Assembly (NCBI RefSeq): GCF_001592225.1
Contig: NZ_BCWN01000009.1
Span: 1 to 64,000 of the forward strand
Length of the DNA stretch: 64,000 bases
Source of the DNA: Castellaniella caeni NBRC 101664
GTDB taxonomy: Bacteria > Pseudomonadota > Gammaproteobacteria > Burkholderiales > Burkholderiaceae_B
Reading direction: 5' to 3'
Under the pieces are notes generated by a model. That model did not search any database. It was given only the letters and a program-made list of their open reading frames with translations, and was not told the origin of the DNA. The first letter of the stretch is position 1. Every line of letters starts with the position of its first letter. The position numbers and the translations under genes were made by a program. This document shows, piece by piece, positions 23,187-25,793 of this stretch.

Positions 23187-23459
23187 ATGGCCCGCACGAT
23201 CTACTGCCACAAACTCAAGCGCGAGGCCGACGGCCTCGACTACCCGCCCTACCCTGGCGATCTGGGCGTGCGCATCTGGCGCGAGATATCCAAAGAAGCC
23301 TGGGCCGCCTGGCTGGACATCCAGACGCGCCTGGTCAATGAAAACCATCTCAGCCTGGCCGAGCCCGAAGCCCGCCGCTTTCTGGCCGAGCGCATGAAGG
23401 CGTTTCTGTTCGAGGACGAACACGTCGAAGCGCAGGGCTACACGCCGCCGGGCACCTGA
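23187..23459 (+). CDS. yggX: Fe(II)-trafficking / oxidative damage protection protein YggX
   Basis: This small cytoplasmic protein, 90 residues, equals E. coli YggX in length. The family helps protect iron-sulfur clusters and labile iron under oxidative stress. The conserved start MARTIYCHKLK holds the key cysteine (Cys7), and the helical core WREISKEAWAAWLDIQTRLVNE is clear from its first and last residues. I chose the ATG at 23187, with a GAGGA-like site ahead of it; the frame continues upstream without family support. The gene is convergent with phoU. Confidence 0.93.
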   Translation: MARTIYCHKLKREADGLDYPPYPGDLGVRIWREISKEAWAAWLDIQTRLVNENHLSLAEPEARRFLAERMKAFLFEDEHVEAQGYTPPGT

Positions 23460-23466
23460 TACGCCA

Positions 23467-23482
23467 CCGATCGCCTGATCGG
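23467..23482. terminator. Stem-loop between convergent yggX and phoU
   Basis: A CCGATC/GATCGG stem with a 4-nt loop starts 8 bases after the yggX stop codon. It has no T-run on the plus strand. By position it may serve as a transcription stop for yggX. Confidence 0.35.
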
Positions 23483-23549
23483 CACAGCGGCCATACCCGT
23501 ACGCAGCACCGCAGCAAGCGGGCGTCCGGGCAACAGGGCAGCAAGCGGC

Positions 23550-24269
23550 CTAGTGCCGCGGCTCGGGTGGCTCGCCGCGCGCCATGCGCTCGGTGTTGTT
23601 GACCCCGGTATGGCGCACGTCGTCGCCGCGCACCATGTAGATGACGCGTTCAGCCATGTTCTTGGCATGGTCGCCAATGCGTTCGAGCGCCCGGGCGATG
23701 AAGATGAGATCGATGGAGTGCGAAATGGTGCGCGGGTCTTCGATCATGTAGGTGATGATGTGACGCAGCGAGGCCTTCCACTCTTTATCGACCTCTTTGT
23801 CGTTGCGCACCACCTGGGCGGCGGCCACCGGGTCTTCGCGGGCAAAGGCGTCCAGCGCCGCGCGGATCATCGCCGCCACGGCGTCGCCCATGTGACGCAG
23901 TTCGACCACGGGTTCGTAGCTGGAATCGCCCTCGTGCAGGCGACGCGCCACCTTAGCGATCTTGTCGGCCTCGTCGCCGCAGCGTTCCATGTCGGTCAGC
24001 ATCTTGGAAACCGACAGCAGCAGGCGCAGGTCGACCGCCGTGGGCTGATTGCGGGCAATCAGCTGGCTGATGCGCTCGTCGATATCGACCTCGAACTGAT
24101 TGACCTGCCGCTCGCGCTCACGCACGCGTTCGACCAGCTGCACTTCGCCCTCGGTCAGCGCCTGGATGCCGTCGAGCACCATGGATTCGACCAGGCCACC
24201 CATCTGCAGGAACATGGAGCGCGTGGTTTCGAGTTCGCTGTGAAATTGCTTATTGGTGTGTTCCAGCAT
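23550..24269 (-). CDS. phoU: Phosphate signalling protein PhoU
   Basis: PhoU links the PstSCAB transporter to PhoR and keeps the Pho regulon off when phosphate is sufficient. The 239-residue protein has the two three-helix PhoU repeats with metal-binding E/D-rich segments, for example TDMERCGDEADKIAKV near residue 91 and ALERIGDHAKNMAE near 197. The ATG at 24269 has an AGAGG site 7 nt upstream. No pst genes are adjacent, so here phoU stands alone behind its own Pho box (24431-24448). Confidence 0.95.
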   Translation of the reverse strand: MLEHTNKQFHSELETTRSMFLQMGGLVESMVLDGIQALTEGEVQLVERVRERERQVNQFEVDIDERISQLIARNQPTAVDLRLLLSVSKMLTDMERCGDEADKIAKVARRLHEGDSSYEPVVELRHMGDAVAAMIRAALDAFAREDPVAAAQVVRNDKEVDKEWKASLRHIITYMIEDPRTISHSIDLIFIARALERIGDHAKNMAERVIYMVRGDDVRHTGVNNTERMARGEPPEPRH

Positions 24270-24283
24270 CGGAGACCTCTATC

Positions 24284-24300
24284 CGCCTGCCGCGCAGGCG
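24284..24300. other. Hairpin in the phoU 5' leader
   Basis: A perfect 7-bp stem (CGCCTGC with GCAGGCG, 3-nt loop) lies 14 bp upstream of the phoU start codon, close to its ribosome-binding site. It would be present in the mRNA made from the Pho-box promoter and could affect translation or mRNA stability. Confidence 0.4.
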
Positions 24301-24414
24301 CATTCAACGAGCGCAAAGCGTACCATCACGCCCGGCAATTGCAAAGAAAAGAGCGTTGTGGACATCCCGTGCGCTCGTCGGCGATCTGGCGCATGCAGCC
24401 AGCCACCTGGTGGC

Positions 24415-24448
24415 AGGATAGCAAGCCGATATGACAGCGGCGTGACAG
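24415..24448 (-). promoter_or_regulatory. Pho box and -10 upstream of phoU
   Basis: On the minus strand, CTGTCAC and CTGTCAT (24448-24431) are separated by 4 bases, giving the 11-bp direct-repeat pitch of PhoB binding sites. Both halves fit the PhoB consensus CTGTCA(C/T). A -10-like TATCCT (24420-24415) follows after 10 bp, the usual distance for a PhoB-activated promoter that lacks a -35. Orientation is toward phoU, 162 bp away, predicting a leader of ~140 nt. Confidence 0.7.
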
Positions 24449-24456
24449 CCGCCGCC

Positions 24457-24512
24457 AGCCATCAACCATCAGCCACTAGCCGTCAGCCACCGCCAGCTAT
24501 CGGCTACCGGCC
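24457..24512. repeat. Short CAGCCA-type simple repeat, non-coding
   Basis: Within the ~300-bp gene-free stretch between rpiA and phoU, a cluster of short near-repeats (AGCCATCA, ATCAGCCA, CGTCAGCCA, CCGCCAGC) lies just upstream of the Pho box. It is imperfect and may be simple sequence drift. The rest of the gap holds the phoU leader and no gene. Confidence 0.35.
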
Positions 24513-24572
24513 TCCCCCCACTGGAACAACGGTGCGGGAACAACGGCTGCTTCACCCCGCCCGGGCGTGCCC

Positions 24573-25253
24573 TCAGTCTTGCAATTCCAGCCGCGACACG
24601 CCGTTTTGCCCGGCCACCAGGGCCACGTGGGCCCCCGAAATGGCAAACAGGCCGCAGCACACCACGCCCGGGATGTTGTTGAGCATGGCTTCGAAGGCAA
24701 TCGGGTCGCCGTAGCGCAACCCGGCCACGTCGAGAATCTGGTTGCCGTTGTCGGTGGTAAAGCCCGCACGCAGCACGGGCTGGCCGCCCAGCTGGCGCAC
24801 TTCGCGCGCCACGGCCTCGCGCGCCAGGGGGATGACTTCGATGGGCAGCGGAAACGCCCCCAGCTGCTCGACCAGCTTGGACTCATCGACGATGCACACG
24901 AAGCGATCCGCCACCGAGGAGACGATTTTTTCGCGCGTCAGCGCCCCGCCCCCACCCTTGATCATGCTGAGCTGATGATCGACTTCGTCGGCACCATCCA
25001 CGTAGAGCGCCATGGACGACACGTCGTTGAGATCCAGCACCGTGACGCCCGCCGCCCGCAGGCGCTGCGTGCTGCGCTCGGAGCTGGACACCGCCGCCTT
25101 GAAATCCGCCCGGTGGGCGGCCAGCAGATCGATGAAGCGATCCACGGTCGAGCCCGTGCCCACCCCCAGGATGCTGTCGGGCTGCAGCTGTGGCAGCACG
25201 TAATCGAGCGCGGCCTGGGCGGCCTGCTGTTTGAGTTCATCCTGGGAAAACAT
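24573..25253 (-). CDS. rpiA: Ribose-5-phosphate isomerase A
   Basis: This enzyme of the pentose phosphate pathway interconverts ribose 5-phosphate and ribulose 5-phosphate. At 226 residues it is the normal length (E. coli 219). Substrate-site motifs are [12 protein letters not shown] near residue 36, DGADEVD near 90 and [11 protein letters not shown] near 103, with the catalytic glutamate in the last. It starts with ATG at 25253 and appears to be a single-gene unit. Confidence 0.96.
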
Positions 25254-25448
25254 GGGGAGCGTCCGTTCGATATCGTGATCAGAAGACGCCTATTTTACGG
25301 GGGAGCCCCGACCACGGGCAATTGAGCCGGGCAAGGCCGCCATCGAGCACGGCAGGAACCGGCCCAAGCCAACCGCCCCGCCACGCCGACACCCCGCAAA
25401 AGCCTGCCCGCGTCAGTGGGGCCGAGGACGGTTGGAGCCTGCCGCCGA

Positions 25449-25793
25449 TTAACGGTGCCTATTGACGATGCGCGTGTATTCGATGGCCCCTGTCGTTCCA
25501 TTGACGTAGAGTTTCACGCGCTGGCCCTGCGCATTGGTGGCCTTGACTTCGTAACGACCATCGTCCCAATCAATTTCGCTGATGCTGTGCATGCCGGCGT
25601 CCTGCATACGTTTGAAAACCTGTCTGATGTCCAGCTGCGCCCCTCGCGGCGCGAGCGAGGCAGCAGCCTGGGCGGGCGCAACTGGCGTGGCCGACGCGGG
25701 CGAGGCCGACTGCGCCTGAGCCCCCAGAGACGTCGATAAGGCAAAGGCGGCGGCAGAGGCGATGAGCAGACGACGAGTAGACAGAAAGGTCAT
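25449..25793 (-). CDS. Periplasmic PepSY-domain protein
   Basis: This 114-residue exported protein has an N-terminal signal (LLIASAAAFALSTSLGAQA, cleaved after AQA near residue 27), an Ala/Pro/Ser linker and one PepSY domain. The domain is recognised by the pattern of a short helix then EIDWDDGRYEVKA and the C-terminal KLYVNGTTGAIEY. Small PepSY proteins are periplasmic and often controlled by two-component systems, but their function is unclear. A strong AAGGAG lies 8 nt upstream of the ATG. Its upstream region has ordered repeats (25816-25897). Confidence 0.85.
   Translation of the reverse strand: MTFLSTRRLLIASAAAFALSTSLGAQAQSASPASATPVAPAQAAASLAPRGAQLDIRQVFKRMQDAGMHSISEIDWDDGRYEVKATNAQGQRVKLYVNGTTGAIEYTRIVNRHR

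Follow-up and report, generated by a model that had tools for sequence, protein, structure and literature searches.

In E. coli, phoU is a gene of the Pho regulon and lies within the pstSCAB-phoU operon (PMC2648988). PHO boxes are described as two 11-nt direct repeats, with CTGTCAT as the most conserved motif, and the E. coli response regulator works with sigma-70 (PMC4415409). When phosphate is abundant, switching PhoB off requires PhoU, which has control over Pst as well (PMC4415409). The role of PhoU varies between species, and its restraint of PhoR may not hold outside E. coli (PMC11208175, PMC4415409). In Streptomyces, phoU is unlinked from pstSCAB and divergent from phoRP, with PHO boxes (PMC7866108, PMC6283541, PMC6784220), and the PHO boxes of phoRP-phoU in S. 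hygroscopicus were confirmed by gel shift and footprinting (PMC6784220). Caulobacter carries a pstCAB-phoU-phoB cluster that is PhoB-dependent (PMC11208175). In the portions of the literature cited here, Pho control of phoU is already known, in E. coli by way of pst and in Streptomyces for a phoU that is unlinked from pst.

The phoU gene studied here comes from Castellaniella, a genus that we take to belong to the family Alcaligenaceae in the order Burkholderiales. Titles and opening lines of abstracts in the open-access literature searched described no Pho box before phoU in this order and no rpiA-phoU locus with a box of its own.

Results

A stand-alone phoU gene downstream of rpiA

The window, by which we mean the whole 64-kb stretch of DNA that was analysed, contains the following features at phoU:

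23550..24269, minus strand: phoU, an open reading frame matching TIGR02135 and the sole PhoU-family gene found in the genome
24317..24325, minus strand: extended -10-like element of candidate promoter P2, TGGTACGCT, from genus and family comparison
24340..24345, minus strand: weak -35-like hexamer of P2, TTTGCA, located by eye 17 nt before TACGCT
24415..24420, minus strand: -10 hexamer of the predicted promoter P1, TATCCT, by direct reading, 10 nt 3' of the Pho box
24431..24448, minus strand: Pho box, half sites CTGTCAC and CTGTCAT at 11-bp pitch, by direct reading, pattern and matrix searches, and comparison with relatives
24573..25253, minus strand: rpiA, 303 bp upstream of phoU, its place conserved in relatives

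The phoU product scored 232.2 bits against TIGR02135 (cut-off 130.25) and covered profile positions 1-211 of 212, which places it in the family; under the narrower model NF008332 it scored 226.5 against a cut-off of 342. PF01895 had two matches in the genome, and these are the two halves of one phoU gene. The pstSCAB genes lie on contig C23 and phoBR on contig C10, both apart from the phoU contig. Since phoU is not directly downstream of pstB, it is not part of a pstSCAB-phoU operon. The sequence-only reading had described phoU as a stand-alone gene, and these placements, together with the single PhoU gene in the genome, bear this out. In 54 of 59 loci compared, our own included, rpiA is upstream of phoU on the same strand; the exceptions are L121 and four loci linked to pst. 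Two phoU genes occur in G050, a genome from another family: the one next to rpiA (L132) lacks a clear box, and the second (L148) comes after pst genes.

A PitA-like transporter gene lies further away on the plus strand (631 bits, below the model cut-off of 800). Upstream of rpiA, a small open reading frame of 114 aa with a signal-like start (window 25449-25793, minus strand) gave no NCBIfam match. In 23400-25600, all Rfam families stayed below their gathering scores, and the fold of the phoU 5' leader was unremarkable (z -1.58; equalled or exceeded in stability by 14 of 200 shuffles). A search for distant DNA matches in plasmids returned partial matches only, covering at most 32% of the query.

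A candidate PhoB-dependent promoter before phoU

Read along the minus strand, the Pho box consists of CTGTCAC (24448-24442), GCCG, and CTGTCAT (24437-24431), which are 7-nt, CTGTCAT-like direct repeats at an 11-bp pitch. The box is separated from the -10 hexamer by the 10-nt spacer ATCGGCTTGC (24430-24421, minus strand). Direct reading of the letters confirmed what the earlier reading had reported, namely half sites at the exact 11-bp pitch with TATCCT 10 nt on. In general, PhoB-dependent promoters have a -10 about 10 nt downstream of the box. The spacing at phoU is the same in most relatives and identical at the genome's own pstS, where the -10 is TATCAT. Transcription from P1 would be expected to start near 24408. 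A simple sigma-70 scan left P1 unflagged, as expected because P1 lacks a -35.

Within the 64-kb window, the 18-mer consensus had one match without mismatches, the phoU site, and the next best match had two mismatches. Allowing up to three mismatches gave 12 matches versus a shuffle mean of 12.3, and therefore only the top match is informative. Across the whole genome (3,282,217 bases scanned, or 3.28 Mb), the same pattern had two exact matches, at phoU and at pstS (C23:18930), and a single match with one mismatch (C29:18598), which lies before a heavy-metal-type response regulator gene. When the full geometry was searched genome-wide as box+N10+TANNNT, exactly two sites were perfect, phoU and pstS, with none at one or two mismatches and seven at three; the backward-read control gave two matches in total. 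The second perfect site is the promoter of pstS in a ppk-pstSCAB stretch without phoU.

We also built two matrices, of 18 and 34 columns, from pstS promoters of relatives. The training set comprised 22 pstS upstream regions (L091-L112) with one consensus-located site each; of 30 pstS loci, our own and L113-L119 were omitted, including L119 although it is from the same family. With the 34-column matrix the phoU site ranked first among 127,934 window positions on both strands (27.5 bits, next 6.9), and with the 18-column matrix it ranked first among 127,966 (16.7 bits, next 10.7). Own-genome DNA was scanned over about 295 kb, a portion of the genome that includes the window, contains redundant stretches and was in part selected because it resembles the box. 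In this DNA the 34-column matrix scored highest at pstS (34.6 bits), followed by phoU (27.5) and the region upstream of phoB (24.2 and 23.1). By 18 columns alone the phoU site was sixth among distinct sequences in the same 295 kb, several of the five that outscored it having been fetched for resembling the box. The four spacer bases between the half sites of the phoU site are GC-rich, and the signal is carried by the 34 columns. The sequence-only reading had proposed ranking the site against those of pst and phoB; in the genome-wide pattern search the site shares first place with pstS and, by the 34-column matrix in about 295 kb of own DNA, it is second to pstS and above the phoB region.

The elements upstream of phoB lie between phoB and ubiE on contig C10 (L088 3969-4060), where they overlap on both strands, the one of 23.1 bits pointing towards phoB and the one of 24.2 bits the opposite way. 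This arrangement suggests autocontrol by PhoB and perhaps control of the divergent ubiE. By eye, AATAGCCCCTGCGGGCTATTGGCAGCCTGTCGAATCGGAGCGGCCTG is present twice before pstS (L087 2300-2440), and its second copy enters the Pho box.

The element is kept before phoU in relatives

We searched 61 genomes and found a PhoU match in 58, with three lacking one. Weak second PhoU matches in G025 and G036 were left out of the locus comparison; the one in G048 (L149) was excluded as well, since tblastn found no PhoU at that locus. At a 34-column threshold of 13 bits, chosen after the scores were seen, the element is present before phoU in 32 of 35 other family genomes that have phoU, the ones below threshold being L075, L123 and L124. 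Among rpiA-linked phoU loci of other families, 10 of 19 reach at least 13 bits and 9 miss. None of the four pst-linked phoU loci (L142, L144, L145, L148) does so. As controls, 52 rpiA upstream regions and 58 phoU coding stretches were scored, and none reached even 10 bits. In the first 29 relatives (L050-L078), the best 34-column score was unmatched in 300 Markov resamplings of the region for 27; for L069 it was reached in 3 of 300 (p ~0.013), and L075 had no site before phoU (p ~0.77).

A second sample consisted of the best 80 of 257 loci from named genomes; it overlaps the first set and holds many close relatives, for example Achromobacter. Of these best 80 loci, 69 score at least 13 bits before phoU and 74 at least 10, whereas the 78 rpiA upstream controls all stay below 10 bits. 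An rpiA match is present in the flanks of all 80, with no match there to PstA, PstB, PhoB or PhoR in any of them. Among named records, the four closest PhoU sequences, 91-94% identical, all carry the name Castellaniella. We conclude that the element is conserved before phoU in relatives.

A second promoter-like element, P2

P2 lies nearer to the gene than P1 and was absent from the earlier reading. Its motif, TGnTAYnCT, occurs 46-67 bases before the phoU start in 10 of 10 genus loci, our own included; the motif was written after viewing these closely related loci, and the ten are thus non-independent. Elsewhere in the family, 3 of 20 loci from other genera carry it at a comparable position, against an expectation of 0.18. 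P2-like matches were found in 19 of the best 80 of 257 loci, and five of these fall by position on the -10 of P1 (the first match in L180, and those in L199, L202, L205 and L206); the P2 counts are thus taken from the smaller set. P2 was also unflagged by the simple sigma-70 scan, which is a weakness for P2. On these comparisons, P2 may be a phosphate-independent promoter of phoU.

Together with P2, the position of rpiA raises the alternative that PhoB can bind the site and yet matters little, with P2 or read-through from rpiA accounting for most phoU expression. The prevalence of P2 in the genus and the presence of rpiA upstream on the same strand, with no terminator-like site found in 23500-25600, would fit this explanation. 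In the 20 loci of other genera (L059-L078), however, P1 reaches at least 13 bits in 19 whereas P2 occurs in 3, and P1 is missing from all four loci in which pst genes precede phoU. We therefore regard a marginal role for PhoB as unlikely.

PhoB and other regulators encoded in the genome

The genome encodes PhoB at C10:61790-62467, which passed TIGR02154 (337.3 vs 296.2) and fell below the narrower model NF007546 (277.6 vs 471). The kinase gene that follows phoB is phoR, whose product passed TIGR02966 (388.5 vs 334.2). Compared over its whole length with solved structures, this protein matches BaeR best; PhoB entries in that set are single domains only. When the DNA-binding domain was compared alone, solved PhoB domains matched best by far (132.6 bits, against 72 for the best match outside PhoB). 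Within this domain, the segment veertvdvhirrlrkal is one residue off solved PhoB. A PhoB orthologue whose DNA-binding domain matches is thus encoded in the genome. Another two-component pair, of response regulator and histidine kinase, follows pstB (L087 6823-8896, contig C23); this pair is not PhoBR and resembles PmrA/PhoP and PhoQ, all below cut-offs.

Ten PF00486-type regulators are above the Pfam cut-off in this genome, and the box might be bound by another OmpR-family response regulator whose half sites are CTGTCAT-like, in which case phoU would answer another signal. A Pho-box look-alike does occur elsewhere: TTGTAAT, CTGTCAT and CTGTCAG stand at 11-bp pitch at C29:18587-18615 (L089 2088-2116), before the genes of a copper/silver-type response regulator (TIGR01387, 339.7 vs 279.2) and kinase pair. 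This run is possibly the operator of its own heavy-metal regulator. The matrix that finds the phoU site was, however, trained on pstS promoters only, and the sole other site in the genome with perfect full geometry is that of pstS. Control of phoU by a regulator other than PhoB consequently appears improbable.

A GGCTG-rich imperfect repeat fills window positions 24446-24512, adjoining the Pho box, and the half sites, taken with flanking bases, nearly repeat each other over 10 bp at a spacing of 11 bp, but relatives keep the box and -10 at the same spacing whereas the repeat region upstream of the box aligns poorly among the ten genus loci, and we set aside chance resemblance arising from the repeat as very unlikely given the matrix rank and the conservation in relatives.

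Discussion

Taken together, our results make it highly likely that the site is the operator of P1, a PhoB-dependent promoter dedicated to phoU that would provide negative feedback. We are less certain of the feedback than of the promoter, because restraint of PhoR by PhoU may fail outside E. coli. The sequence-only reading had suggested that phoU is Pho-controlled apart from the pst genes; this idea gains support, at the level of sequence comparison, from the rank of the site in the genome, its conservation, its absence at four pst-linked loci, and the presence of PhoB and PhoR. Very probably, then, phoU has its own phosphate-starvation switch apart from the pst genes, and this switch is common to many relatives.

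From the account of PHO boxes, sigma-70 and the role of PhoU in PMC4415409, we infer PhoB binding, activation, feedback and P2 activity as follows. Phosphorylated PhoB would bind the pair of 11-bp repeats, which stand in for a -35, and would recruit sigma-70 RNA polymerase to TATCCT. In phosphate starvation, PhoU would rise with PstSCAB through P1 despite their separate loci. If PhoU restrains PhoR signalling or Pst uptake as in studied species, a negative feedback loop would close. When phosphate is plentiful, P2 would probably supply PhoU at a basal level.

A broader proposal, to which we give an even chance, extends to the family and part of the order. Here, a pst-unlinked rpiA-phoU arrangement would keep a private PhoB promoter, joined in some genera by a constitutive-type promoter, and the PhoU level would be set independently of Pst, with basal PhoU in plenty and a starvation-induced, delayed negative feedback. 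A regulator gene unlinked from pst would then be tied, across the family and part of the order, to the regulon that it presumably restrains. The genomes also form a natural set (private box, pst-linked without box, and no box) for testing whether PhoU needs to track Pst and PhoR. The general picture of phoU as a Pho regulon gene is unchanged, and this is the expected kind of control for such a gene.

The locus resembles that of E. coli in that phoU would belong to the Pho regulon, with two 11-nt repeats and the CTGTCAT motif. In E. coli, however, phoU is in the transporter operon, whereas here it is separate, beside rpiA, with its own box. The Caulobacter-type cluster contains the same genes, and its arrangement is also seen in L142, L144 and L145, which are from other families; in contrast to our locus, in these three phoU follows pstB and precedes phoB, and this matrix detects no separate box before it. 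Streptomyces shares with our locus a phoU that is unlinked from pst and has boxes for the phosphate response regulator, and PhoU is reportedly PhoP-dependent there, going by the title of a paper cited in PMC7866108. The Streptomyces box region, however, is common to phoRP and has a GTTCACC-like half site, whereas the half sites here are CTGTCAT-like and phoBR is on another contig.
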